Assembly: GCA_030043215.1 (NCBI GenBank)
Contig: JASHYG010000094.1
Coordinates: forward strand, 1-13,858
DNA length: 13,858 nucleotides
Reading direction: 5' to 3'
Source: Gammaproteobacteria bacterium
Lineage (GTDB): Bacteria; Pseudomonadota; Gammaproteobacteria; Steroidobacterales; Steroidobacteraceae
Part shown: positions 473 to 13,858 of the stretch, in pieces
How the letters are laid out: every line of letters begins with the position of its first letter
Numbering within the stretch: position 1 is the stretch's first letter
The notes under the pieces: model-generated
Told to the model about the DNA's origin: nothing
The model's database searches: none
Seen by the model: only the letters and a program-made list of their open reading frames with translations
Made by a program: the position numbers and the translations under genes

Positions 473-850
473 GTGAGAGCCGTCGTGTCGATCAGCGACG
501 CCGAGTCCCGCGTGCTGGCGGTGCTGTGGCGTGACGGAAGCTCCACGAGCGAGCGCGTCATCGCTGCGCTCGCGCAGGAGAGCTGGGAAGTCTCGACGAT
601 CAAGACCCTCCTTGCGCGCCTGGTCAGGAAGCGTGCCATTCGTGCCAAGAAGGAGGGGCGGCGCTACGTCTACTCGGCGGTGCTCACGCGCGAGCAATGG
701 ATCACCACCGAGAGCGAAGGGCTGCTGAGCCGCCTATTCGGAGGGCGTGTCGCGCCCCTGGTCCAGCACTTCAGTCAACACCGAAAACTGTCGAAGGCCG
801 ATATCGCAGAGCTCAGGCGCTTGATCGGGGAGCTGGACGATGGCGAATGA
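473..850 (+). CDS. blaI: BlaI/MecI/CopY-family transcriptional repressor
   Basis: A 125-residue protein, the usual length for the family. Residues 6-70 form the winged helix (ISDAESRVLAVLW, then the recognition stretch STIKTLLARLVRK and the wing EGRRYVYSAV). Residues 71-120 form the dimerisation tail (LTREQW, SLLSRLFGG-like segment, PLVQHF, then ADIAELRRLIGEL). In known systems the dimer represses its own operon and is cleaved after the paired metalloprotease is activated. The S. aureus BlaI cleavage point is Asn-Phe; the equivalent pair here appears to be His99-Phe100. The GTG start at 473 is preceded by a modest AGGAA at 462-466. Two matching operators lie directly upstream, and the downstream protease gene overlaps by 11 bases. 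The family is certain. The target genes beyond autoregulation are unknown, and no beta-lactamase lies in the window. Confidence 0.93.
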   Translation: MRAVVSISDAESRVLAVLWRDGSSTSERVIAALAQESWEVSTIKTLLARLVRKRAIRAKKEGRRYVYSAVLTREQWITTESEGLLSRLFGGRVAPLVQHFSQHRKLSKADIAELRRLIGELDDGE

Positions 851-2171
851 GGTGCTGACCCTCCTCGTCCGGATTTCCGTCGTCGGCTTGGTAGGGATTG
901 TTCTCGTTGGCGTGCTGCGAGTACCCGCTCGTCGTGCGGTGGGTGCCGAGGCGTCCTACTGGCTTTGGCTCTTGGTGCCCGCAAGCCTCATAGGAGTGCT
1001 CCTTCCTCGAGCACCGCCCTGCCTCTGCGGCCCCGAGACCCTCGTCAGTCCACTCTTGATCCGAGGAATCACGGCACCCTTGGACTTCGCTCCGATGACC
1101 GCCGTCAGCAACCTCGCACCGGCCGCGACGCTCCTCTGGGCCCTCGGCGCTGCCGTCGCCCTCGTGTATTTCGCCTACTGTCAACAACGCTTGCGCAGAT
1201 CCCTCGGGTTTCTGCAGCGCCTTCCCGATGGCACCTACCGGAGCTCGGCTGCAAAGCAGCCCATGGTGATCGGCGCGTGGCGTCCCCGAATCGTGCTGCC
1301 GAGCGACTTCGAGACTCGCTACTCGGAGAGCGAGCGCACGCTGATCCTGGCCCACGAGCGCGCCCACCTGGCTCGACAGGATGCGCTCACGAACGCCATC
1401 GCGGTCGCGCTCGTGTGCCTGTTCTGGCTCAACCCCCTCATGTACTGGGCGTGGAGCCGATTCCGATTCGACCAGGAGGTGGCTTGCGATGCGGCCGTAC
1501 TCCGACGAGTCGGAGTCGCCCGCCAGCGTTATGCACGGGCGCTGGCGAGAACCCAGCTCGCGGCACGCACCGCGATCGCCTTCGGATGGCGGCGCCGGCA
1601 CCCGTTGCTTGAGCGAGTTGCCCTCCTCAGACGTCCGGCGCCCAGTCGCTCCCGGCGACGAACGGGCTATTCGCTTGCGCTCCTGCTCGTGCTTTCCGGA
1701 ACGTACGTCGTGTGGGCCGCTCAACCGGACCTCAGCGCACCGATCCTCGAGGCTAAACCTCTGATCGCGATCAGTCTCCGGTGGTTCATCGATGGCGAGG
1801 AGGTCCTCACCATCGGGCACGAATCAGGCCGGCCAGACAGGTTGCTGCACTCTGGAGATCCGCTCAGGCTCGTGATGCCCTCCCGGGCCGGTGTGATCCA
1901 CGGGCTGACGTGCATCCCGTCTCTACATCCCGATGACTCGGTGCCCGCCGCCACCCTCCCGCCGCAGGGGCCGACGCACGAGGGTCCGCACGCGATCCTC
2001 ATCGCGTGTCAAATCAGCCTCGCGGAGAAGGTCATCGCCAAACCGGCCGTACTGCTTGCGGATGGGCAAACCGGGGTTATCGAGGTCGGTGATCCTGGGC
2101 GAAAAGCCGTCGTTCGCATCGAGCTCAATGCGTCGACTTCGCCTTCGAGGCTGAAGGCGGCACGAGACTAG
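840..2171 (+). CDS. blaR1: BlaR1/MecR1-type M56 membrane zinc metalloprotease, without PBP sensor domain
   Basis: A 443-residue membrane protein. Hydrophobic segments lie at about 4-26, 38-55, 95-113, 185-203 and 277-293. The zinc protease motif HERAH is at 172-176, with a third ligand Glu213 in EVACD, as in family M56. After the last membrane segment (ending VVWAAQ) come about 150 residues that would face the periplasm. They resemble a beta-rich domain (LRWFIDGEEV near 313, IEVGDPGRKAVVRIEL near 420) and show no SxxK/KTG penicillin-binding motifs. The protein presumably senses a periplasmic signal and triggers removal of the upstream repressor. The ATG at 840 lies inside the repressor gene with a GGGGAG Shine-Dalgarno at 827-832, so translation is probably coupled. 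The gene symbol reflects the family; a beta-lactam-sensing role is not supported by the C-terminal domain. Confidence 0.88.
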   Translation: MANEVLTLLVRISVVGLVGIVLVGVLRVPARRAVGAEASYWLWLLVPASLIGVLLPRAPPCLCGPETLVSPLLIRGITAPLDFAPMTAVSNLAPAATLLWALGAAVALVYFAYCQQRLRRSLGFLQRLPDGTYRSSAAKQPMVIGAWRPRIVLPSDFETRYSESERTLILAHERAHLARQDALTNAIAVALVCLFWLNPLMYWAWSRFRFDQEVACDAAVLRRVGVARQRYARALARTQLAARTAIAFGWRRRHPLLERVALLRRPAPSRSRRRTGYSLALLLVLSGTYVVWAAQPDLSAPILEAKPLIAISLRWFIDGEEVLTIGHESGRPDRLLHSGDPLRLVMPSRAGVIHGLTCIPSLHPDDSVPAATLPPQGPTHEGPHAILIACQISLAEKVIAKPAVLLADGQTGVIEVGDPGRKAVVRIELNASTSPSRLKAARD

Positions 2172-2303
2172 ACGATGCTTGTTTGCTTCGACGACAGCAA
2201 GCACTGGATCGACGTCTACCGGGAGCGAGATTAGCGATGCTCGCCGCTGTCCGTGATTTGCGCTAAGCTGCCCCACCCATTCCAGAACAACCACGGGGCC
2301 ATC
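2172..2303 (+). other. Intergenic region between blaR-like and PEBP genes
   Basis: 132 bases on the same strand. A weak stem (TGCTTG...CAAGCA around 2176-2203) has no following T run, so a terminator is doubtful. No strong promoter is visible. The PEBP gene could be co-transcribed with blaI-blaR or have its own weak promoter. Confidence 0.35.
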
Positions 2304-2903
2304 ATGGGTACCAAGAATCTCAGTGCAGTGTCTCTGTTCCTCGCAGTAGTACTGCTGAGTGCCGGTGCCGCACAAGCGCAGGCGCCTGCGGCCAGGGCAA
2401 GGGGTGGATTCAGACTCCCGCCGCTGCAGATGCAGACCACCGCATTCGAGGACGGCGGCATCCTCCCGCAGAAATACGCCGGCCGCGGCGGCATCCAGCC
2501 GGGCTTCACGTTCTCCGGTGCGCCCGCAGGGACGGTAGCCTACGCGATCATTCTTCATGACGTGGATGTCGCCATCGGCGGCGGCACGGATGACGTACTG
2601 CACTGGATGGCCTGGAACATTCCGGCATCAGCGAACGGCATCCCCGAAGGCAGCCTCCCAGAGGGCTCGGTAACGGGCCGAAACCTCATGGGCCAGAACG
2701 CCTACATGGGTCCTTCTCCCCCTCCGGGCTCCCCCTATCACCACTACATCTTCGAGCTGTACGCGCTGAATTCGAAGCTCGATCTCCCCGCGACCGCGAC
2801 CCGCGCCGAGCTCTTGGCGGCCATGAAGGGCAAGACGGTCGCGAAGGCCGCCTATGTCGGCCGATATCACAGCGCGCCGCGGCCGAGTCCGCCCTCCCAG
2901 TAG
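2304..2903 (+). CDS. Secreted YbhB/YbcL-family (PEBP / Raf kinase inhibitor-like) protein
   Basis: From ATG 2304 the protein has 199 residues. It begins with a clear signal peptide (MGTKNLSAVSLFLAVVLLS..., cleavage likely after AQA near residue 25). An upstream in-frame GTG at 2253 would bury that signal, so 2304 is preferred although its Shine-Dalgarno (GGGG, 2295-2298) is modest. The PEBP fold signatures are present: FSGAPAGTVAYAIILHDVD, then LHWMAWNIPAS, EGS...GRN, and GPSPPPGSPYHHYIFELYAL, which line the anion-binding pocket in this family. Bacterial YbhB/YbcL proteins are about 160-200 residues and their biochemical role is poorly defined; they are not known to act on Raf. Export to the periplasm is likely. 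It sits behind blaR-like in the same direction and may belong to that regulon, but there is no direct evidence. Confidence 0.9.
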   Translation: MGTKNLSAVSLFLAVVLLSAGAAQAQAPAARARGGFRLPPLQMQTTAFEDGGILPQKYAGRGGIQPGFTFSGAPAGTVAYAIILHDVDVAIGGGTDDVLHWMAWNIPASANGIPEGSLPEGSVTGRNLMGQNAYMGPSPPPGSPYHHYIFELYALNSKLDLPATATRAELLAAMKGKTVAKAAYVGRYHSAPRPSPPSQ

Positions 2904-2961: not shown

Positions 2962-3363
2962 TCAAACAGTGACGACCTTGACGATCGCCTTCAGCGGAGC
3001 AAAGTCGGAAGGATTGCGGGTGTAGAGCGCCAGGCTGTTGGCGGCAGCGGTGGATGCGATGAGTAAATCCGCCAGCCGAGAGCGGCTCGACTGACGGGCT
3101 GCTCGCATGGCCGCAAACACCCGGCCGTACAGGCGGGCCGCTTCCGCATCGAACGGCAGAGCGTCCCACGTTGCGGTCGCCCACTGCAGCCGGTCCTGGC
3201 GTCGAGCGCGCTCGTCCTTGTCTTCGGTAGCGTGCGGGCCTGCGGCGAGCTCCGCGAGGGTCACGGCGGCAATCGCGGATTCATCGGGCAGCAGCGCCGT
3301 GTCGATCACGTCGTGATCGATCACCACCGATGTATCGAGCAGCCCCCTGGTCGATTCAGCCAT
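2962..3363 (-). CDS. vapC: PIN-domain ribonuclease toxin, VapC family
   Basis: 133 residues, the normal VapC length. The PIN-domain acidic residues are visible: Asp10 in GLLDTSVVID, Glu38 in VTLAELAAG, Asp99 in RLADLLIAS and Asp120 in LYTRNPSDF. These acids bind the divalent metal used to cut RNA; many VapC toxins cut tRNA or a rRNA loop and stop translation. The ATG at 3361-3363 overlaps the end of the upstream antitoxin gene by 8 bases, so the pair is translationally coupled. The family is certain and all four catalytic acids are intact, so the toxin is probably active. The RNA target cannot be read from the sequence. Toxin-antitoxin pairs are often mobile, but I see no repeats or integrase nearby. 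Confidence 0.93.
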   Translation of the reverse strand: MAESTRGLLDTSVVIDHDVIDTALLPDESAIAAVTLAELAAGPHATEDKDERARRQDRLQWATATWDALPFDAEAARLYGRVFAAMRAARQSSRSRLADLLIASTAAANSLALYTRNPSDFAPLKAIVKVVTV

Positions 3364-3604
3364 CGATGCGCTGATCGATTACAGCGTCGAGATCCGCGCG
3401 AAAGCGGCCGGCATCGACCCGCGGGGCGCGAGCCGCAGCGTCGACAATGACGGCCCGCGGCACGAACCGGCGAGGGCGAATGGGCCGTAACTCCGCAACC
3501 GGCGTGCCGTTGCGGGTCACCGTGATTGTTCGCCCTGCTTCCACCTCGCGCAGCACGGCTGCCGACTGATTGCGCAGCTCCCGCTGAGTGATCTTCCGGT
3601 TCAT
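3356..3604 (-). CDS. Phd/YefM-family antitoxin (partner of VapC)
   Basis: 82 residues. The N-terminal Phd/YefM DNA-binding fold is clear: ITQRELRNQSAAVLREVEAG then RTITVTRNGTPVAELRPI (residues 5-42). The C-terminal tail (about 43-82, with PRVDAGRFRADLDAVID) should wrap and inhibit the PIN toxin. Antitoxins of this type also bind their own promoter. The gene ends TGGCTGA with the vapC ATG inside the last codons. No Shine-Dalgarno is visible before the ATG at 3602-3604, and a palindrome plus a promoter-like pair lie immediately upstream, consistent with autoregulation and possibly a leaderless transcript. The pairing of a Phd-type antitoxin with a PIN toxin is well known. Confidence 0.92.
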   Translation of the reverse strand: MNRKITQRELRNQSAAVLREVEAGRTITVTRNGTPVAELRPIRPRRFVPRAVIVDAAARAPRVDAGRFRADLDAVIDQRIDG

Positions 3605-3966: not shown

Positions 3967-6150
3967 TTGTTCCCGCCTCGTCAATGCGCATCGCTCGGCA
4001 CGGCCGCTCCTCGGCACTCGGGGGATGGGCGGCCTGATGTCCGATGCGCAGCGGGCCTGCTCTTGGCACTGCTGCTGACTTGCTTGCACGGGACTGCCCG
4101 CGCCGACACGCCCTCTTCTGCGGAACCCAACACACCGCCCGTCGCGCAACTGGTCGCACAGGCCGACGCGCCGGCTGCGACGCCCTCCGGATCCCCCTCA
4201 ACCGGTCAGCTGAAGCAGATGACCTTGGCGCAATTGATGAACGTCGAGGTGACGTCAGTTTCCAAGCAGCCGCAGAAGCTTCTGCAAGCGGCAGCAGCGA
4301 TCCAGGTCATCACGAGCGAGGACATCCGCCGCTCGGGCGCAACGACCCTGCCGGAGGCACTGCGGCTTGCGGACAACCTGGAGGTTGCGCAGATCAACGC
4401 CCACGACTGGGCCATCAGCGCACGCGGCTTCAACACGAACCTCGCGGACAAGCTCCTGGTCCTCATCGATGGCCGAGCGGTCTACACCCCGCTCTACGGC
4501 GGGGTTCTGTGGAGCGTACAGGATTATCCCCTCGCCGACATCGATCGGATCGAGGTCATCAGCGGTCCCGGCGGTACGCTCTGGGGCGCGAACGCGGTCA
4601 ACGGCGTCATCAACATCATCACCAAGTCCGCGCAGGACACTCAAGGCGTCTATGCCTCGAGCGCCGCGGGCAACGAGCTTCAGGATGAGAGCGTCCTGCG
4701 CTACGGCGGCGAGCTTGCGCCGGACGTCTATTGGCGCATCTATGGGAAATACACGGACTTCGGCGATGAGGTCACGAGCACTCGCGCCGACGCCGACGAT
4801 GCGTGGCACATGGCACGCACCGGCTTTCGCATGGATGCCGGCGACTCGCAGCAAGACCAGTACACCCTGCAAGGAGACTTCTACGACGGCACGGACGGCA
4901 CCGGCGCCGCCGGAGGTGAAACGCTCTCCGGCGGCAACATTCTCGGCCGCTGGAGTCGCGAGCTGGCCGGCGGCTCCTCCATGAGCCTGCAGGCGTATTA
5001 CGATCACACGTACCTCGGGCAACCGTATCTCGCAAGCGCGGCGGCCCCTCCCTACTACACCGGGTTTCCCGCGTCGGAATTGACGGACGAGCTCGATACG
5101 TCCGACGTGCAATTCCAGTACCACTTTAACTGGGACGCGTGGCAGCAGATGGTCTGGGGCCTCGAATACCGTGCAACCCACGAGGTCGACCTGGACCTCA
5201 ACATCGTGCGCTTCCTGCCACCGGTCCTGAATCAGAACCTCTACAGCGGCTTCCTTCAGGATGAGATCCGACTCGCGCAGGAGGTGTACCTCACCTTCGG
5301 CTCGAAGCTCGAGCACAATGACTTCACGGGCTATGAGGTGGAGCCCAACATCCGCCTGCAGTGGAACCTCGACCCGAATCAGCTCCTGTGGGCCGCGGTA
5401 TCGCGCGCCGTGCGGACGCCGTCACGCTACGATCGGGACCTCGAGGTGCCGACCGGCCTCGTCAACGCCCCCGCCCCCTTCCAATTCCCCACGGCGTATC
5501 TCACGGGAAGCAGCGATTTCGTCTCCGAGACGCTGATCGCGTACGAGATCGGCTATCGCGCGGCGCTCGGGTCGCGGCTCACGGGCTCGCTCTCGACCTT
5601 CTACAACGACTACACCAACCTGCGCAGCACTTCCGCAACCCCGACGACATTTTTCTATCCGTACCCCTATCCGATCTACTTCCAGAACAATCTCAAGGGC
5701 GAGACCGATGGGGCCGAGCTCACCCTGTCCTATCAGGTGCTCGACTGGTGGCGACTGCACGCCGGCTACGATCTGCTGCTCGAGGACATCTACGTGGCGC
5801 CCGGGGAGGTGTCCACCACCGGTGCGACCAACGAGACCGCGGATCCGAAGCACCAGGCGTCCCTTCGCTCGAGCATGGATCTGCCGCACCAATTGACCTT
5901 GGACATGGACCTGCGCTGGGTCGATGATTTCGACATCAACGACGGGCCGACCGACGGGCCCGTCGTCGGTACCGTACCGGCCTACTTCGAGCTCGGCGCC
6001 CGGCTCGGATGGCACGCGACCGACCGCCTCGAGCTGTCTCTCGTCGGGCAGAATCTATTGCATCCCTACCACGTCGAATACGGGTTCCCGTCGGCGTCGC
6101 GCGAGGAAATCGCGCGCAGCATCTTTGCCGAGGTCTCCTGGGGAACCTGA
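3967..6150 (+). CDS. TonB-dependent outer-membrane receptor
   Basis: 727 residues. A hydrophobic signal segment (CAAGLLLALLLTCLHGTARA, about 27-46) precedes a Pro/Ala-rich linker. The segment LKQMTLAQLMNVEVTSVSK (82-100) stands where the TonB box is expected. The plug domain (about 104-222) has ITSEDIRRSG, SARGFN, LVLIDGR, DIDRIEVISGPGGTLWG and ANAVNGVINIITK. The rest, about 240-727, is a 22-strand barrel by family, ending in RSIFAEVSWGT. Such receptors import scarce ligands (metal chelates, vitamins, glycans) using TonB-ExbBD energy; the substrate cannot be told. No ATG fits the N-terminus. The TTG at 3967 is chosen because GGAGA (3956-3960) lies 7 bases before it and it keeps the signal peptide. 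The gene converges on the yfiR-histidine-kinase operon. From general knowledge, receptors with this plug type are often found near YfiR-like and kinase or GGDEF genes, suggesting a shared signalling role. Confidence 0.92.
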   Translation: MFPPRQCASLGTAAPRHSGDGRPDVRCAAGLLLALLLTCLHGTARADTPSSAEPNTPPVAQLVAQADAPAATPSGSPSTGQLKQMTLAQLMNVEVTSVSKQPQKLLQAAAAIQVITSEDIRRSGATTLPEALRLADNLEVAQINAHDWAISARGFNTNLADKLLVLIDGRAVYTPLYGGVLWSVQDYPLADIDRIEVISGPGGTLWGANAVNGVINIITKSAQDTQGVYASSAAGNELQDESVLRYGGELAPDVYWRIYGKYTDFGDEVTSTRADADDAWHMARTGFRMDAGDSQQDQYTLQGDFYDGTDGTGAAGGETLSGGNILGRWSRELAGGSSMSLQAYYDHTYLGQPYLASAAAPPYYTGFPASELTDELDTSDVQFQYHFNWDAWQQMVWGLEYRATHEVDLDLNIVRFLPPVLNQNLYSGFLQDEIRLAQEVYLTFGSKLEHNDFTGYEVEPNIRLQWNLDPNQLLWAAVSRAVRTPSRYDRDLEVPTGLVNAPAPFQFPTAYLTGSSDFVSETLIAYEIGYRAALGSRLTGSLSTFYNDYTNLRSTSATPTTFFYPYPYPIYFQNNLKGETDGAELTLSYQVLDWWRLHAGYDLLLEDIYVAPGEVSTTGATNETADPKHQASLRSSMDLPHQLTLDMDLRWVDDFDINDGPTDGPVVGTVPAYFELGARLGWHATDRLELSLVGQNLLHPYHVEYGFPSASREEIARSIFAEVSWGT

Positions 6151-6189: not shown

Positions 6190-7308
6190 TCATCCCTTCG
6201 CGCCGGGACGCACCGGTACGCTGAACCGGAAAGTCGCGCCCTCTCCCGGCCGGCCTTCGCCCTGCACCGTGCCCCCGTGGCGCTCGACGATGCGCTGCAC
6301 GATCGACAGTCCAATCCCGGTTCCCTTGAACTCCGCTTGAGAATGCAGCCTCTGGAAGACGCCGAACAGCTTATCGGCGTACTTCATGTCGAAGCCGGCT
6401 CCGTTGTCGGTGACGGAGTAGACCGCCTCGTCCTCCTTCAACTCGCCGCCTACCTCGATGCGAGCCGGGTCGCGGCCTGCCGTGTACTTCAAGGCGTTGG
6501 AGAGCAGGTTGAAGAGCACTTGCTTGAGCAGCGCGGGGTCGGCGAGGCAATCGGGCAGCGGCCGCACGCTCAGATCCACCTGCCTCCCGGCGCTCTCGCG
6601 CCCGAGCTCCGCCACAACCTCGCCGACGAGCTCGTTCATCGCCACGCGTCGGAGGTTGATCGGCGCGCTTCCGCTGCGCGCGAAGCTCAGCAGGTCCTCG
6701 ATGAGACGGCCCATGCGCTCGGCGCCCGTGCGGACGTGCGCGAGGAGCGTCTGGCCTTCGGCGGGAACGGCCGCGCCGTAGTCGGCCACGAACAGATCGC
6801 AGAAGCTCTGAATCGCTCGCAGCGGCGCATGCAGGTCGTGCGAGACCGAGTACGCGAAGGCCTCGAGATCGCGGTTCGCCACTTCGAGCTCGCGGGTCCG
6901 CTCGAGGATCCGTCGCTCGAGCTCCTTGTTGAGGCGGCGCAGGCGCCGTGCCTCGAGCGCTCGGGAGATCACCGGCACCAGCTGATTCATTCGGAAGGGC
7001 TTGACGATGTAGTCGCACGCGCCTGCCTGCATGGCCTTCACGGCGGTATCGATCGTGCCGTGCCCGGTCATGACGATTCCGGCCACGTCGGCGTCGATCT
7101 CCTGCGCCGCCCGCAGCAGCGCGATGCCGTCCATCTCCGGCATCTTGAGGTCCGTCAGGAGCAGATCGAAGGCCTTGCCGCGCATCTCCGCCAGGGCGGC
7201 GGAGGCGGACACGACGCCCGTGGTCGCATAACCCTCGAGCTGCAGCGTGTCGCAGAGTGCCCGCATGTGCGCCGCCTCGTCGTCCACGATGAGCAACGGC
7301 ACGGGCAT
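6190..7308 (-). CDS. REC-HisKA-HATPase protein (response-regulator/histidine kinase)
   Basis: 372 residues from ATG 7308, cytoplasmic, no membrane segment. A receiver domain comes first (about 4-118) with Asp9/Asp10, phospho-acceptor Asp53 in LLTDLKMPEMDG and Lys103 in IVKPF. A coiled linker (RRLNKELERRILERTRELEVANRDLEAF) leads to HisKA with His157 in SVSHDLHAPLRAI. The ATPase domain has the N box (NLLSNALKYT, Asn271), DNGAGFD (301-307) and GTGIGLSIV (329-337). All catalytic residues are present, so it should phosphorylate itself and be modulated through its own receiver. An ATG at 7336-7338 overlaps the upstream kinase stop (ATGA) and would add 10 residues. I chose 7308 because GGGAG (7316-7320 on the plus strand, reverse) lies 7 bases before it. 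It is the last gene of the yfiR operon; its receiver is a natural phosphate acceptor from the upstream kinase. Confidence 0.9.
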   Translation of the reverse strand: MPVPLLIVDDEAAHMRALCDTLQLEGYATTGVVSASAALAEMRGKAFDLLLTDLKMPEMDGIALLRAAQEIDADVAGIVMTGHGTIDTAVKAMQAGACDYIVKPFRMNQLVPVISRALEARRLRRLNKELERRILERTRELEVANRDLEAFAYSVSHDLHAPLRAIQSFCDLFVADYGAAVPAEGQTLLAHVRTGAERMGRLIEDLLSFARSGSAPINLRRVAMNELVGEVVAELGRESAGRQVDLSVRPLPDCLADPALLKQVLFNLLSNALKYTAGRDPARIEVGGELKEDEAVYSVTDNGAGFDMKYADKLFGVFQRLHSQAEFKGTGIGLSIVQRIVERHGGTVQGEGRPGEGATFRFSVPVRPGAKG

Positions 7309-7334
7309 CGATGGACTCCCTTCCGGCGTGGCGG

Positions 7335-9764
7335 TCATGCGACTCGCGGACGATCGGCGACGAGCGCAGCGAGCGCCGTCCGGATGTCGTGAATCTTGGG
7401 CGGCTTGCTGAGCACCCGATCGACGTGAGGCGGAATGTCGTCCTCGCTGAGCAGCCGCTTGCCCCAGCCCGTGAGGAGAATGAGCGGAGTCTCGGGAGCG
7501 GCCGCCTCGATCGCCGCGGCGACCTTGCGGCCGTCCACATACGGCATGCCGAGATCGGTGATGACCACGTCGAAGGGTGCCCCACCCTGCAGCGCAGCCG
7601 CGAAGGCGTCGATACCATTCTGTCCGCCGTCGGCCGCCTTCACGCGGTGCCCGTCGGCCTCGAGAATGTCCCGGAGCGATTTGAGGATGAGCGGATCGTC
7701 GTCCACCAGAAGGATCGAGAGGCGACGCAGCGGCCCCTGCGAGGCGGACACCTGGTGCGTTGCGTCCTGCACCACCTCCGAGACCGGAAAGATCAACCGC
7801 AGTGTCGTCCCCTTGCCGAGCTCGCTGTCGATCTCGAGCTCCGCGCTGTGACGCTGCACCATGCCGTAGACCATCGCGAGTCCGAGTCCCGTGCCGCGCT
7901 CTCCCTTGGTGGTATAGAACGGCTCGAGGCAGCGCCGCCGCGTCTCCTCGCTCATGCCGATGCCGGAATCGCAGACCTCCACCTGGACGTAGGGGGCCTG
8001 AGCCTCCCCTGTCCGGCTCGGCCGCGGCCCGGTGCTCGTCCGCAGCGTGAGCGTGCCTCCGTCGGGCATGGCATCGACGGCATTGAAGATGAGATTGGTC
8101 AGCGCGTCCCGAATCTCGACCTCGGCGCCCATGATCTCGGGCAAGTGGGGTTCCAGAGCTTGCTCCAGTCGGATAACGACGCCGCGCTGCTGGGGCAGAT
8201 CGCTCCACCGGGCATGGGTCAAATCCACGACCTGCCCGATCGTCCGATTCAGGTCGACACGCGCGAGAACGAGCTGCCGCTCGCGCGGCCGATAGAACTC
8301 TCGCATCCGTGCGACGGTCTCCGCGACGTCCTCGATGGCTCGTTGGATGGTGACGAGATAGCTGCGGGCCCGCTCGCTCAGGTTCGGCTCGCGCTCGAGG
8401 AGCGTGTCGGTATAGAGCGAGACCGGCGAGATCGCGTTGTTGATGTCGTGCGCGATGCCGCTCGCCATCTGCCCGAGCGCCCGCAGCCGCTCCTGCTGCA
8501 GGACGGTCTGTTGTGACTGGCTCAAGTCGTCATAGGCGCGTTGCAGGGCCTCGTGGAGCTGAGCCTGGCGCGCGGCGAGCGCGACGTGCTGGCTCAGCTG
8601 CAGGAGAAACTCGCAATCGGCGCTGCTGAAGGCGTGGTCCGCGGCGCGCGCCGCAACGAGCATGCCGAATACGCGATTCTCGACGAGGAGCGGCGCGATG
8701 ATGAGCGAGAGCAGTCCGGAGCGGGCAAAGCGCCCCGGGAAGGGAAAGTACACTTCCCGCGTATCCGGCTCGTAGACCAGCTGGCCCTCGACACAGCGGG
8801 ACAATCCGTTCTGGTCGATGGGGATGGCTTCACGCTCGGTGAGCCCCAGAGTCTGCGCGTGCGGCACGCTTCCCGCGCCCACGGTCGCGAGGCTCACGGT
8901 GTCCGTTCCGGCCTCATACAGGCACGCGCAGCCGAAGTCGATCGGCAGGTCCTGCTCGAGCGTGCCCAGGACCACCTGAAAGATGCTCGGCAGGTCCTGG
9001 CGCTCCCCGATGGCGTGCGTGATCCGGTGCAGCAGATCGAGGCGGGTGAGCTGTGTGTGGAGCCTCAGCTGGCCTTCCTCGATGCGCGTGAGCATGTGAT
9101 TGAAGGCGTCGGTGAGCAGTCCGAGCTCGTTCCCCGCAGCCGGCGGGGCGCGCACGGAATAGTCGCGGTTCTCGGAGACGGACCGGGCCGTGCCGGCGAG
9201 CGCGAGGATGGGGCCGGAGATCTCCCGCTGCAGGCGGGTCGCAACCAGATAGGCGACCACCGCGGTCAGTCCGAGGACGAGCACGGCGATCAGCGCGTAG
9301 AGCCTGAAGCGCTGGTAAATGGCCCCGAGATCCGACCTCACATAAAGCGTACCGAGGCGCCGATCGCCCTGAGCGACCGGTTGCACTCCGATGAGCGACG
9401 GCCCCTCGAACCGATAGCCGCTGCGCGGCGGGGTCGCGGGAAGCGCCGCGGCGCTCACACCGCGCGGATACCTCGCAAAGAGCTTGCCATCGCGGGTATA
9501 CAAACCGGCCGCAACGAGGTGCGGCTCGGCCCGCAGCGCGGACAGGGTCTCGAGGGCGCCCTGCGCGTCATCGAAAGCGAGCGCGCCGGTGCTGTTCGCG
9601 GCGACCACCTCCCCGAGGGTCGTCAGGTCGCGCAGCGCGAGCTGCCGGGCACTGAGCAGCTCGTAGGCGCTGAAGGTCGCGCAGGTGATGACCACGACGA
9701 CGCCGCTCGTGAGCAGCATCATCGTCATGAGCGACCGTTTGATCTGCCTGGAGCGCGGTGCCAT
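7335..9764 (-). CDS. Hybrid sensor histidine kinase: CHASE8-like / HAMP / GAF / HisKA / HATPase / REC
   Basis: 809 residues. TM1 spans about 12-32. A periplasmic domain (about 36-150) carries the segments VVAANSTGALAFDD, ETLSALRAEPHLVAAGLY and GKLFARYP, typical of the CHASE8-type domain of YfiN/TpbB. TM2 (about 155-175) and HAMP (about 172-235) follow, then GAF (about 250-400), and HisKA with His439 in MASGIAHDINNAISP. The ATPase domain has Asn561 in NLIFNAVDAMPDGG, DSGIGM (599-604) and GTGLGLAMVYG. A C-terminal receiver (about 682-805) has Asp688-690, phospho-acceptor Asp737 in ITDLGMP and Lys787. The kinase therefore senses a periplasmic cue and passes phosphate to its own or another receiver. 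The ATG at 9762-9764 directly follows the stop of the yfiR-like gene, with a GGGGGAGGGA Shine-Dalgarno inside that gene. The domain order is seen; control by the YfiR-like protein is inferred from the YfiN-like periplasmic domain and the operon. Confidence 0.93.
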   Translation of the reverse strand: MAPRSRQIKRSLMTMMLLTSGVVVVITCATFSAYELLSARQLALRDLTTLGEVVAANSTGALAFDDAQGALETLSALRAEPHLVAAGLYTRDGKLFARYPRGVSAAALPATPPRSGYRFEGPSLIGVQPVAQGDRRLGTLYVRSDLGAIYQRFRLYALIAVLVLGLTAVVAYLVATRLQREISGPILALAGTARSVSENRDYSVRAPPAAGNELGLLTDAFNHMLTRIEEGQLRLHTQLTRLDLLHRITHAIGERQDLPSIFQVVLGTLEQDLPIDFGCACLYEAGTDTVSLATVGAGSVPHAQTLGLTEREAIPIDQNGLSRCVEGQLVYEPDTREVYFPFPGRFARSGLLSLIIAPLLVENRVFGMLVAARAADHAFSSADCEFLLQLSQHVALAARQAQLHEALQRAYDDLSQSQQTVLQQERLRALGQMASGIAHDINNAISPVSLYTDTLLEREPNLSERARSYLVTIQRAIEDVAETVARMREFYRPRERQLVLARVDLNRTIGQVVDLTHARWSDLPQQRGVVIRLEQALEPHLPEIMGAEVEIRDALTNLIFNAVDAMPDGGTLTLRTSTGPRPSRTGEAQAPYVQVEVCDSGIGMSEETRRRCLEPFYTTKGERGTGLGLAMVYGMVQRHSAELEIDSELGKGTTLRLIFPVSEVVQDATHQVSASQGPLRRLSILLVDDDPLILKSLRDILEADGHRVKAADGGQNGIDAFAAALQGGAPFDVVITDLGMPYVDGRKVAAAIEAAAPETPLILLTGWGKRLLSEDDIPPHVDRVLSKPPKIHDIRTALAALVADRPRVA

Positions 9765-10307
9765 CTATCCCTCCCCCGGTCCGACGATCTGCGCGGGCTC
9801 GAGCAGCTGCGAGCTCAAGGTGAGGCCGCCCCCCCGCGCCGCCCCGACATTGATTCGCATGCGAACGTGATCGCCGTCGAGAACCAATTCGATCATGACG
9901 CCGTTCCTCGACGCGCCGTCGATATCGCTCACCGTCAGGATGCTGCGACCGTGGAGTGCCTCGACGATCGCGCGCAATCGCCCCGTCTCCGAGCGGCCGA
10001 TGAACAGGATCTGGCAGTCCTTGACCTGCGATACGTCGCGGTAGCGGCGCACGAGCAAGCGCCGCCCCCCGGCGTGCTCTCCGGCGACGACCGAGTCGAG
10101 CTGGCCGCCGAACGGATCGTCGCCCAGCACACCGATCACCATCGGAGAGTCGGCGCTCGCGAACGCAGCGGCCGGCCAGGACACGAACTGGGAAAAATTG
10201 AAGAGGAAGACGGCCTTGACCTGGTATTCCGAGACCGGACCGGCGAGCGCGACGCACTGCGCCGTGAGCGCGAGCGAAAGAGCGAGGTATGCCAGGAGTC
10301 TGCGCAT
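9765..10307 (-). CDS. yfiR: YfiR-family (DUF4154) periplasmic protein
   Basis: 180 residues with a signal peptide (MRRLLAYLALSLALTAQCVALAG, cleavage about residue 22-23). The mature part shows the whole YfiR/DUF4154 pattern: EYQVKAVFLFNFSQFVSWP, then PMVIGVLGDDPFGGQLDSVV, CQILFIG, LTVSDIDG, and GVMIELVLDGDHVRMRINVGAA...GLTLSSQLL. In Pseudomonas aeruginosa YfiR is a periplasmic inhibitor of the diguanylate cyclase YfiN and is itself released by redox or envelope stress through YfiB. Here the next gene is a histidine kinase with a YfiN-like periplasmic domain, so that kinase is the likely target. The mature protein has a single Cys (98), too few for the intramolecular disulfides described in P. 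aeruginosa YfiR. The start ATG (10305-10307) has no clear Shine-Dalgarno. First gene of the operon; no yfiB-like gene in the window. Confidence 0.93.
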   Translation of the reverse strand: MRRLLAYLALSLALTAQCVALAGPVSEYQVKAVFLFNFSQFVSWPAAAFASADSPMVIGVLGDDPFGGQLDSVVAGEHAGGRRLLVRRYRDVSQVKDCQILFIGRSETGRLRAIVEALHGRSILTVSDIDGASRNGVMIELVLDGDHVRMRINVGAARGGGLTLSSQLLEPAQIVGPGEG

Positions 10308-10393
10308 CGGCGGCCGGTCGGGTCGAGCGTCTCGGGGGCCATTCCTCGGCGCATCGCCCAGGCCCGTTGAAGTCGAGAATGCGCCGATCGGAG

Positions 10394-10421
10394 ATTAAGT
10401 GAAAAGGTCGAGGCCCGTGAA
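10394..10421 (-). promoter_or_regulatory. Possible promoter of the yfiR operon
   Basis: On the minus strand TTCACG (10416-10421) and CTTAAT (10394-10399) are 16 bases apart, each 4 of 6 to the sigma70 consensus, about 87 bases before the yfiR start. The palindrome TGAGATCTCA lies just upstream of the -35. Modest match, so tentative. Confidence 0.3.
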
Positions 10422-10428
10422 CTGTGAG

Positions 10429-10438
10429 TGAGATCTCA
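10429..10438. repeat. 10-bp palindrome TGAGATCTCA
   Basis: A perfect palindrome just upstream of the possible yfiR -35 element, in the shared regulatory region. Possible activator or repressor site; could also be chance. Confidence 0.3.
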
Positions 10439-10485
10439 GGGTCCTCTCGGTGGCGAGAATCCCGTCACGCGGCGCGGCCCCTGAT

Positions 10486-10498
10486 GTGGAAATTCCAC
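10486..10498. promoter_or_regulatory. Palindrome GTGGAA-A-TTCCAC, candidate operator
   Basis: A 13-base odd palindrome with 6-bp perfect arms, near the middle of the divergent yfiR / REC-GGDEF-EAL intergenic region. Placement suggests a dimeric regulator could act on either transcript. No regulator gene in the window has a DNA-binding domain to pair with it except the BlaI-type and antitoxin proteins, whose sites look different. Confidence 0.4.
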
Positions 10499-10647
10499 CT
10501 CCTCAATCATGGAGCGCCACGCGCGTGTGCATGCGCAAGGAGGCGATCCAGTTCACGGGCCGCAGCCGCCGCTCCTGTTAACGTATTCAATCTACTGCAC
10601 GTGCGCACGGTACGCTCCGCCCACTCGAGACATCTCACGAGCCCGCA

Positions 10648-12987
10648 GTGAACATCCGAGGCGAAAAGGGTCGAGACCGCCATCTCGGCGATCCCATTCG
10701 GGTTCTCCTCGTCGAGGACAACGAGGTCGAGGCAGAGCTCACCCACCGGCAGCTCGACGCGAGCGGCATCCGGCACGTCATGCGGCGGGTCGAGACCGAG
10801 GAGTCCATGAGGGCCGAGCTCGAGGCCTTCCGACCGACGATCATTCTCTCCGACTTCACCCTGCCCACGTTCGACGGACTGTCCGCGCTCGCGATTGCGC
10901 ACGAACACGCGCCGGAGATTCCGTTCCTGTTCGTCTCCGGGACGATCGGGGAGGAGCGGGCGATCGAGGCGCTGCGCCGCGGCGCCGTCGACTACGTTCT
11001 GAAGAGCAATCTTGCACGGCTCGGACCGGCCGTGAAGCGAGCGCTCGCGGAGGCCGCCGCGAGGACTGTGCGCCGGCAGCAGGAGGCTCAGATCGCCCGT
11101 CTGACGGGCGTGTTGCGCATGTTGAGCGGCATCAACGGCGTCGTGGTCCGCATTCACGACCGCAACGAGCTGCTGCGCGAGGCTTGCCGGCTGGCCGTGA
11201 GCGTGGGCGGATATCAAGCCGCCGTGGTGGCCCTCAGGCACGCGAGGACTCAGACGCTCGAGACCGTCGCATGGAGCGGCGTCGATCTGGGCGAGGCGGC
11301 GCAGCTCTGCGACTCCATTGCGAAGCGCTCCGGTCAGGACCGCTTTGGAACCTTCCTCGACTCCGACGGCGAGGGAGCGCTGGTCCGGCACGAATCGGTC
11401 GGCCGTGAGGGCTCGACGGAGCCGAGCGGCGGCGCCTCGGAACCCGCCGACGCCGGTCGGTCCGTGATCGGGCTTCCGCTCATCGTCGACAAGACGGTGC
11501 TCGGCATCCTCATCGTGTGCAACCGGGAGCGGGACAGCCTCAACGAGGAGGAGTCGCGCATTCTGCGCGAGGTGGCCGCCAATCTCTCGTTTGCGCTGCA
11601 GTACCTCCAGCAGGACAGCAGGGTACGCCTGCTCTCCTATTTTGACGTGCTCACCGGCCTCGCCAAGCGCACGCTGTTCTGCGAGCGGCTCGATCGGCTG
11701 CTGCGCCGCTCCGCGAAGGTCGGGGCTCGTCATGCCGTCGCCGTCATCGACGTCGAGAACCTGAGCGTGGTCAACGACTCCCTCGGACGCCACGCCGGCG
11801 ACTTGCTCTTGCAGCTGCTCGCCGATCGCTTAAAGCGGCGTTTCCGGGACACGGATCAGCTCGCGCACTTTGCCGGCGGCACTTTCGCGATCGTGCAGCC
11901 CGCGAGCGGCGCGACGCAGGAGTGCATCGACAGCCTGACAGGCCAATTGACCGAGCTGCTGGCCGAGCCCTTCGTGCTCGAGGGCAACAATGTGCCGGTT
12001 GCGGCGCGCAGCGGTATCGCCGTGTACCCGGAAGACGGAAGAGAGGGCGAAGTCCTCGTGCAGAGATCCGAGGCGGCGCTGTGGACCGCGAAGGCTTCGG
12101 GCAACCGCCACCGTCACTACAGCGCGGAGCAGCACTCGGCCCGTCTGGCGCGAGTGTCGCTGGAGAGGAAGCTGCGTGGCGCGCTGGAGCACCAGCAGTT
12201 CGAGCTCTACTATCAGCCGAAGGTCGCCGTGAAGACGCGCCGCATCGACGGCGTGGAGGCGCTCATCCGCTGGAACGACCCGGACACAGGCGTCGTGTCC
12301 CCCGCGGAGTTTCTCCCGATCCTCGAGCAGAGCGGCCTCATCGTCGAGGTGGGCGACTGGGTCATCGAGCGCGCGGCGGGCGACTGCCAGGAGTGGCAGC
12401 GGGCCGGGCTGCCGCCGATCCGGGTCGCGGTCAACATCTCCGCGCGGCAGCTGCACCTCCCGGATTTCGTCGCGCGCTTCCTGAAACACACTCAGACCTG
12501 GGCCACCGAACGGTGCGGGCTCGACATTGAGATCACCGAGAGCGCGCTGATCGATGAGTCCTCCGCCGAGGTCGGCAAGCTCAAGATGCTGCGGGCGGCC
12601 GGGGCGACCGTCGCCATCGACGACTTCGGCACCGGCTACTCCTCGCTGAGCCGGCTCGCGCACCTGCCGATCGACACCCTGAAGATCGACCGCACGTTCA
12701 CCAACGCGATGACGCTCGATCCGCGCGGCCGCAAGCTCGTCGCCGTCATCATCGAGATCGCCCGCGCCTTCAGGATGCAGGTCGTCGCCGAGGGCGTCGA
12801 GACTCAGGAGCAGCTCGATGCGCTCTGGCAGCTCGGCTGCGACCAGTCCCAGGGCTACCTGCACAGCAAGCCCGTCACGCGGGAGCAATTCGCCGAGCTG
12901 CTCCAGCACGGCAAGGGGCGCTACATCCTGCCGAAGGATGCGCCCGACAGCCCGGCCCAGACATCCGAGGCTCCTCGATCCGCGTGA
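10648..12987 (+). CDS. REC-GAF-GGDEF(degenerate)-EAL c-di-GMP phosphodiesterase
   Basis: 779 residues, cytoplasmic. Receiver (about 17-130): Asp24, phospho-acceptor Asp69 in LSDFTLPTFDG, Lys119. GAF (about 150-318). GGDEF-type domain (about 325-490) starts YFDVLTGLAKR, but the signature is AGGTF (409-413) in place of GGDEF, so the catalytic acid is lost and cyclase activity is unlikely. An RxxD (Arg400-Asp403) stands exactly five residues before it, like the product-binding I-site. EAL domain (about 505-755) is complete: Glu537 in VEALIRW, Asn596 in NISARQL, Glu631 in EITES, Asp658-Asp659 in IDDFGTGYSSL, Lys679 in LKIDR, Glu715 in AEGVET, Gln735 in SQGY. It should hydrolyse c-di-GMP to pGpG, with the receiver coupling activity to phosphorylation. 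Start is the GTG at 10648 with a poor Shine-Dalgarno; no ATG precedes the receiver. Divergent from the yfiR-kinase operon, whose kinases are the obvious phosphate source. Confidence 0.92.
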   Translation: MNIRGEKGRDRHLGDPIRVLLVEDNEVEAELTHRQLDASGIRHVMRRVETEESMRAELEAFRPTIILSDFTLPTFDGLSALAIAHEHAPEIPFLFVSGTIGEERAIEALRRGAVDYVLKSNLARLGPAVKRALAEAAARTVRRQQEAQIARLTGVLRMLSGINGVVVRIHDRNELLREACRLAVSVGGYQAAVVALRHARTQTLETVAWSGVDLGEAAQLCDSIAKRSGQDRFGTFLDSDGEGALVRHESVGREGSTEPSGGASEPADAGRSVIGLPLIVDKTVLGILIVCNRERDSLNEEESRILREVAANLSFALQYLQQDSRVRLLSYFDVLTGLAKRTLFCERLDRLLRRSAKVGARHAVAVIDVENLSVVNDSLGRHAGDLLLQLLADRLKRRFRDTDQLAHFAGGTFAIVQPASGATQECIDSLTGQLTELLAEPFVLEGNNVPVAARSGIAVYPEDGREGEVLVQRSEAALWTAKASGNRHRHYSAEQHSARLARVSLERKLRGALEHQQFELYYQPKVAVKTRRIDGVEALIRWNDPDTGVVSPAEFLPILEQSGLIVEVGDWVIERAAGDCQEWQRAGLPPIRVAVNISARQLHLPDFVARFLKHTQTWATERCGLDIEITESALIDESSAEVGKLKMLRAAGATVAIDDFGTGYSSLSRLAHLPIDTLKIDRTFTNAMTLDPRGRKLVAVIIEIARAFRMQVVAEGVETQEQLDALWQLGCDQSQGYLHSKPVTREQFAELLQHGKGRYILPKDAPDSPAQTSEAPRSA

Positions 12988-13265: not shown

Positions 13266-13858
13266 ATGCGCCTGCTGGAGAACAAGACCTGCCTCATCAC
13301 CGGCGGGGCGGGCAGCATCGGGCTTGCGAGCGCCGAGCTGTTCCTCGAGGAAGGCGCGCGCGTCATGCTGGTGGATCTGCACGAGGATGCCCTCGAGCGC
13401 GCGGTCGGCCGCTTGACGGACGCCCGACTACCGCAGGAGCGCATCGCCACCCACGCCGCCGACGTGGGCGTGGCTCGGGATGTCGCCGATTCCATCTCCG
13501 CGACCGTCGCGCACTGGGGGAAGATCGACGTGCTCTTCAGCAACGCCGGCAACGCCGGGGCGATCGGCTCAATCGTCTCCTACCCGGAGGACGTGTTCGA
13601 CGAGGTGTACCGCGTCCACGTGCGAGGCGCGTTCCTGATGTGCAAGTACGGCATTCCGCACATGAACGATGGCGGCAGCATCGTCATCACCTCGAGCGTC
13701 GTCGGGCTCATGGGCAATCCCGGCCCCTATGCCTACATCACCGCCAAGCATGCCCAGGTCGGCTTGATGCGCTCGGTGGCGAAGGAAGTCGCCGGCCGGC
13801 GCATCCGCGTGAACACCATTCACCCCGGGCCGACTCAGAATGAATTCCAGTCCGGCAT
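13266..13858 (+). CDS. Short-chain dehydrogenase/reductase (3' end beyond window)
   Basis: 197 codons are present; the usual length is about 250-280, so roughly the last quarter is missing. Classical SDR motifs are in order: TGGAGSIG (12-19) for cofactor binding, Asp37 in MLVDLH, which favours NAD(H) over NADP(H), the NAG motif (93-95), the catalytic Ser in VITSSVVG (about 143-144), Tyr157 and Lys161 in YAYITAK, and HPGPTQNEF (186-194). It is a soluble NAD-dependent oxidoreductase of an alcohol or ketone; the substrate cannot be assigned. The ATG at 13266 has GGAG (13255-13258) 7 bases upstream. The spacer before it holds a 12-base palindrome GCCGGTACCGGC (13234-13245) that begins at the stop codon of the preceding gene. 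Confidence 0.92.
   Translation, partial: MRLLENKTCLITGGAGSIGLASAELFLEEGARVMLVDLHEDALERAVGRLTDARLPQERIATHAADVGVARDVADSISATVAHWGKIDVLFSNAGNAGAIGSIVSYPEDVFDEVYRVHVRGAFLMCKYGIPHMNDGGSIVITSSVVGLMGNPGPYAYITAKHAQVGLMRSVAKEVAGRRIRVNTIHPGPTQNEFQSG

Follow-up and report, generated by a model that had tools for sequence, protein, structure and literature searches.

In the YfiBNR system of Pseudomonas aeruginosa, a YfiR (DUF4154) protein with four conserved cysteines accompanies a CHASE8-HAMP membrane sensor with a GGDEF output and the OmpA/Pal-like lipoprotein YfiB. TonB-dependent transducers of the FecA/FpvA type operate together with an anti-sigma factor and a sigma factor. Distant Yfi systems often carry GGDEF-EAL, an HPt, or a sensor kinase in place of the GGDEF output, and the variants also include YfiN homologs with an MCP output and, in Thauera, a hybrid kinase with two YfiR proteins (Malone et al. 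2012, PMC3375315, in the portions of that paper considered here). The word TonB is absent from its main text, and the same portions mention neither a receptor nor a REC-EAL partner. In the portions considered, PMC9611778 mentions both YfiR and TonB and draws no link between them, and PMC11481889 does not contain YfiR. A text search of one paper library found no paper joining DUF4154 with a histidine kinase or a YfiR-like protein with a TonB-dependent receptor.

The yfiR-CHASE8 kinase operon and its neighbors

We analyzed a 13,858-nucleotide stretch of DNA (the window) from a gammaproteobacterium of the family Steroidobacteraceae (contig JASHYG010000094.1), whose partially assembled genome (455 contigs, 62.8% complete) contains a single DUF4154 match. 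The features relevant to the locus are as follows.

3967-6150, plus strand: TonB-dependent receptor P0004, convergent with the operon (NCBIfam TonB_dep_TOL0244); read from 3991, start provisional
4210-4266, plus strand: N-terminal segment of the receptor, LKQMTLAQLMNVEVTSVSK, just ahead of the plug, at the start of profile NF053590; proposed YfiR-contact segment
6190-7338, minus strand: REC-HisKA-HATPase protein P0003, 382 amino acids (Response_reg, HisKA, and HATPase_c by Pfam)
7335-9764, minus strand: hybrid sensor kinase P0002, CHASE8-HAMP-GAF-HisKA-HATPase-REC, 809 amino acids (NCBIfam HK_near_YfiR_like)
9339-9647, minus strand: CHASE8 periplasmic domain, residues 40 to 142 of P0002 (PF17152, 8.1e-15)
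9765-10307, minus strand: yfiR-like gene P0001, 180 amino acids, apparent signal peptide and DUF4154 domain (NCBIfam YfiR_like_TOL0243)
10308-10647, no strand: intergenic gap of 340 bp between yfiR and the P0005 gene; presumed promoter location, from position only
10648-12987, plus strand: REC-GAF-GGDEF-EAL protein P0005, divergent from yfiR, 779 amino acids (Pfam); predicted c-di-GMP phosphodiesterase

The window also contains a BlaI-like penicillinase-repressor gene with a BlaR1-type M56 peptidase gene downstream (473-2171, plus strand), a PEBP-family protein (2253-2903, plus strand), a Phd/YefM-type antitoxin and PIN-domain gene pair (2962-3604, minus strand), and the beginning of a short-chain dehydrogenase (13266-13856, plus strand).

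The first-pass annotation had described a YfiR-like gene abutting a kinase with a YfiN-like periplasmic domain and HAMP, a GAF-HisKA-HATPase-REC output, and then a REC-HisKA-HATPase protein; gene order, strand, and Pfam domains agree with this description. The profile searches that it had proposed place DUF4154 in P0001 (PF13689, E = 2.5e-42) and CHASE8 in P0002, the latter above its cut-off, and the HAMP (PF00672), GAF, HisKA, HATPase_c, and Response_reg domains of P0002 likewise each exceed the Pfam cut-off. The TAG stop codon of yfiR directly abuts the ATG start codon of the kinase gene, which in turn overlaps the P0003 gene by 4 nt. P0001 scores 158 bits against NF053591 (YfiR_like_TOL0243; curated cut-off, 125) and P0002 scores 235 bits against NF053592 (HK_near_YfiR_like; cut-off, 194), and these adjacent genes form a YfiR/CHASE8-kinase module as defined by both models scoring above cut-off in neighboring genes. 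Against the narrower sequest_YfiR model NF053586, P0001 reaches only 25.1 bits (cut-off, 85). Residues 8 to 242 of P0002 match the E. coli DgcN/YfiN model NF007423 (1.9e-23; 83 bits, below the cut-off of 325), and the predicted structure of the CHASE8 domain resembles the periplasmic sensor domains of WalK and CitA.

Like YfiBNR, the window encodes a YfiR (DUF4154) protein and a CHASE8-HAMP membrane sensor. Unlike YfiBNR, its sensor ends in HisKA-HATPase-REC, its YfiR-like protein has a single cysteine after the apparent signal peptide (one cysteine is invariant across 18 relatives), and a TonB receptor lies nearby. P0001 has a methionine at the presumed equivalent of Phe162 of P. aeruginosa YfiR, as placed by a weak alignment. 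Among the 13 window frames scanned with Pfam we found no OmpA/Pal-like domain of the YfiB kind, no FecR or sigma domain, and, in line with the first reading of the locus, no HPt domain and no DNA-binding response regulator.

In the portions of Malone et al. 2012 considered, variants share with the window a YfiR protein beside a YfiN-like sensor with a histidine kinase output. This wiring had been presented as new; it has been in print since 2012 (PMC3375315) and is curated in NCBIfam for the YfiR, the kinase, and the TonB receptor, and the YfiR-to-kinase connection is an independent rediscovery of a known kind of wiring. The names of the three NCBIfam models that the window proteins pass (NF053590, NF053591, and NF053592) give a family and an association, and the parts of these entries considered here give no mechanism or c-di-GMP output. 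The new parts are the receptor segment and a likely return to c-di-GMP, which yield a testable hypothesis of a five-gene circuit.

Recurrence of the neighborhood

We assembled 175 loci from the best 80 of 131 named loci, stretches from further genomes, and the window; after duplicates above 97% identity were merged, 169 unique yfiR genes remained. The loci were collected by yfiR similarity and their neighbors called with profiles built from proteins of the window, which restricts the figures to this part of the family. A CHASE8 sensor lies near yfiR in 142 of the 169 loci, and outputs comprise a kinase (119 loci), a kinase plus GGDEF (1), GGDEF (12), a sensor only or cut off (10), and none (27). 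The pairing of yfiR with a CHASE8 kinase recurs well beyond the window; of the outcomes that the first-pass annotation had named as refuting, a failure of the kinase's periplasmic domain to match CHASE8 and a lack of the gene pair in relatives did not appear. In alignment A2, 72 rows match DUF4154 and 67 match CHASE8, the same numbers as those of rows containing each part.

A TonB receptor is found within 3.5 kb of yfiR (start to start) at 130 of the 169 loci, with 110 of these receptors upstream and on the same strand; the window is scored as a miss, its receptor being 3.6 kb away. The 77 unique named loci, which carry 11 phylum-level labels taken from record titles (3 loci are uncertain, and metagenome bins can be mislabeled), include 68 with an adjacent receptor, 74 with CHASE8, 66 with a kinase output, 28 with a REC-HK gene, and 15 with a REC-GGDEF/EAL gene. 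The co-directional order receptor, yfiR, CHASE8-kinase, REC-HK, REC-GGDEF-EAL occurs in five loci (L094, L104, L107, L109, and L141). The originally annotated span of 6190-10307 is too narrow, since the recurrent neighborhood takes in 3967-6150 and 10648-12987 as well. Distribution of the module is patchy: a survey of the class found DUF4154 in 37 of 232 genomes, and one of the order found NF053591 in 28 of 246.

In locus L232 (5912-8632, minus strand), a single frame contains DUF4154 followed by PAS, HisKA, HATPase, and REC, with no CHASE8 match. An apparent REC-YfiR frame in L208 was discarded as evidence, being a stop-to-stop reading.

A short receptor segment associated with yfiR

The window receptor, P0004, passes the TonB_dep_TOL0244 model NF053590 (722 bits; cut-off, 645) and has plug and barrel domains by Pfam. 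As with FecA/FpvA transducers, we propose that it signals through an N-terminal periplasmic part; it differs from them in lacking an STN domain before the plug (Pfam matches at E values up to 1 are of plug and barrel type only) and in the length of the segment, only about 14 to 19 residues. A typical sequence in yfiR-adjacent receptors is LKKLSIEQLMNLEVTSVSR. We scored the segment as present when the alignment to the receptor profile begins at position 6 or lower, rather than by motif matching, and a few adjacent receptors that pass by position, such as those in L263 and L273, are only loosely similar in sequence.

In the class survey, the receptor list comprised 150 rows among the matches listed, a few per genome at most, and 148 after two fragments were dropped; 42 of these 148 carry the segment. 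A DUF4154 gene lies within 5 kb of 26 of the 42 segment-bearing receptors versus 0 of the 106 without the segment (P = 2.6e-18, among the matches listed), where zero overstates the rule because the list holds only those 150 rows, a few per genome at most. Conversely, 106 of the 122 listed receptors away from yfiR lack the segment. In the fetched loci, scored with a receptor profile of our own, the segment is present in 100 of 108 yfiR-adjacent receptors and in 10 of 19 nonadjacent or control receptors, the window's receptor among them (P = 6.6e-5 versus adjacent). Two of the eight adjacent receptors without it are fragments (L128 and L150), and six are apparently genuine (L240, two in L262, L266, L258, and L287); five of these six have no CHASE8 gene nearby.

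In a second arrangement, seen in loci L240, L262, L266, L281, and L287, the TonB receptor lies downstream of yfiR and an adjacent CHASE8 kinase is mostly missing; most of these receptors lack the segment. In L238, two yfiR genes alternate with two TonB receptors ahead of one CHASE8 kinase, recalling the double-YfiR Thauera system in the portions of Malone et al. 2012 considered. Two apparent TonB-YfiR fusions were discarded: that in L162 is a receptor fragment, and that in L170 contains runs of N.

Over 81 loci, YfiR covaries with CHASE8 (r = 0.83) and HAMP (r = 0.75) and only weakly with that protein's kinase core (r = 0.19); these are raw values that still include species phylogeny. An AlphaFold2 single-chain fusion of YfiR and the sensor gave a pLDDT of 93.6 and a pTM of 0.58, and a single chain of the L101 receptor and YfiR gave 87.2 and 0.74, with the segment poorly placed (block pLDDT, 50 and 73; residues 1 to 24 below 50). 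Neither model, each a single chain and the sensor probably a dimer, contains a confident interface. Alignments A3 and A4 were set aside unfolded, as they placed receptor C termini on YfiR columns; alignment A5 drew on 20 of A3's 48 YfiR-only rows.

The REC-GAF-GGDEF-EAL neighbor and a candidate circuit

P0005 has AGGTF in place of GGDEF and intact EAL motifs, as judged by alignment to solved GGDEF-EAL proteins and by motif columns; the EAL residues scored are those that we take to matter for its catalysis. A consensus scan found no promoter or terminator, and for the 340-bp gap between yfiR and the P0005 gene it gave no sigma-70 match. Among 34 REC-GGDEF-EAL neighbors of kinase loci, 33 pass the EAL residue check and 1 is cut off, although the check is permissive: L242 and L261 pass it too, and both depart from the usual motifs. 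Of the same 34, 20 have a GGDEF motif scored as intact and 14 a degenerate one, the degenerate group including the window, L092, L094, L095, L104, L106, L107, L130, L141, and L144; the GGDEY of L252 was also scored as degenerate.

Among full-flank kinase loci of the window's class, 23 of 49 have a REC-GGDEF/EAL gene within 8 kb (either domain alone being allowed), versus 1 of 17 control kinases (P = 0.0027, an optimistic value, as loci share ancestry). The window's class here means genomes of its class plus records titled Gammaproteobacteria, Proteobacteria, or the like; the controls derive from 40 regions, a few with short flanks, of which 23 were excluded, our profile not recognizing a kinase at their center. 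None of the 8 GGDEF-output loci has such a gene. Another kinase target is likely at the loci with no REC-GGDEF/EAL gene within 8 kb, which number 26 of 49 in the window's class and 28 of 32 among the others. Because this neighbor recurs in relatives and points back to c-di-GMP, we reject the earlier statement that the operon has a different output chemistry; the end point of the kinase pathway is probably a c-di-GMP phosphodiesterase. In L271, CHASE8, kinase, several REC, GGDEF, and EAL domains occur in one frame, combining a kinase with a c-di-GMP output.

We propose, with a probability of roughly 55%, a trans-envelope module that runs from receptor to YfiR to kinase and ends in c-di-GMP breakdown. 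The TonB-dependent receptor would meet or import its substrate and signal to the YfiR-like protein via the short periplasmic segment, and YfiR would bind CHASE8 and set the activity of the hybrid kinase. By analogy with YfiR-YfiN, bound YfiR may restrain the kinase and the receptor may relieve this restraint in YfiB's place. Phosphate would then move from the kinase to its own receiver, to the receiver of the REC-HisKA protein, and finally to that of P0005, altering c-di-GMP breakdown. The data show the genes and their domains, the recurrent linkage, the association of the receptor segment with yfiR, the covariation of YfiR with CHASE8, and a degenerate GGDEF beside intact EAL motifs; how the proteins touch, which way and with what sign each step acts, and how phosphate travels are what we infer from them. 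Passage from receiver to receiver is unaccounted for in the module, since the scanned window frames contain no HPt.

It is also conceivable, if unlikely, that YfiR and the CHASE8 kinase are the whole sensor and that the TonB receptor is a regulated transport gene whose segment is merely a subfamily feature. Such an arrangement would fit the only moderate covariation of the receptor with YfiR (plug, 0.31; barrel, 0.42), the position of the window receptor, which is convergent and outside the yfiR operon and so also speaks against our module, and the lack of a receptor within 3.5 kb at 13 of the 49 full-flank kinase loci in the window's class, window included. The alignment of 10 of 19 nonadjacent or control receptors from the segment onward points the same way, as do the many YfiNR pairs without YfiB in the portions of Malone et al. 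(PMC3375315) considered. Yet genomes with yfiR are home to 41 of the 42 segment-bearing receptors versus 21 of the 106 others among the matches listed, and the segment survives in low-scoring, divergent receptors. Near a CHASE8 gene, moreover, 89 of 92 adjacent receptors carry it, and two of the other three are broken or masked fragments.

The output end of the module invites a similar question, because the kinase could act on a DNA-binding regulator encoded in another part of the genome, with the REC-GGDEF-EAL neighbor being incidental. At 62.8% completeness in 455 contigs such a regulator could have been missed, and outside the window's class the REC-GGDEF/EAL neighbor is present at only 4 of 32 full-flank kinase loci, against 13 of 32 for REC-HK. 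We nevertheless regard a distant regulator as quite improbable, given the excess of the neighbor over control kinases within the class (23 of 49 versus 1 of 17), the same divergent neighbor in the close relatives L092, L093, and L095, and the co-directional REC-GGDEF-EAL tail in L094, L104, L106, L107, L109, and L141.

Extended beyond this locus, the receptor-to-kinase module suggests a generalization that we advance tentatively and at somewhat less than even odds: a widespread class of TonB receptors may signal through a short N-terminal segment that binds YfiR-like proteins, crossing the envelope by a route apart from the FecA-FecR-sigma type and feeding interchangeable inner-membrane outputs (hybrid kinase or GGDEF-EAL), and in this clade a response regulator with phosphodiesterase activity may lead the kinase branch back to c-di-GMP. 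Should the receptor-YfiR step prove real, it would suggest what replaces YfiB where YfiR systems have none and would offer a defined target for mutation. Many phyla would then contain bacteria that relay the encounters of their outer-membrane receptors to kinases or c-di-GMP enzymes of the inner membrane with no anti-sigma factor involved.
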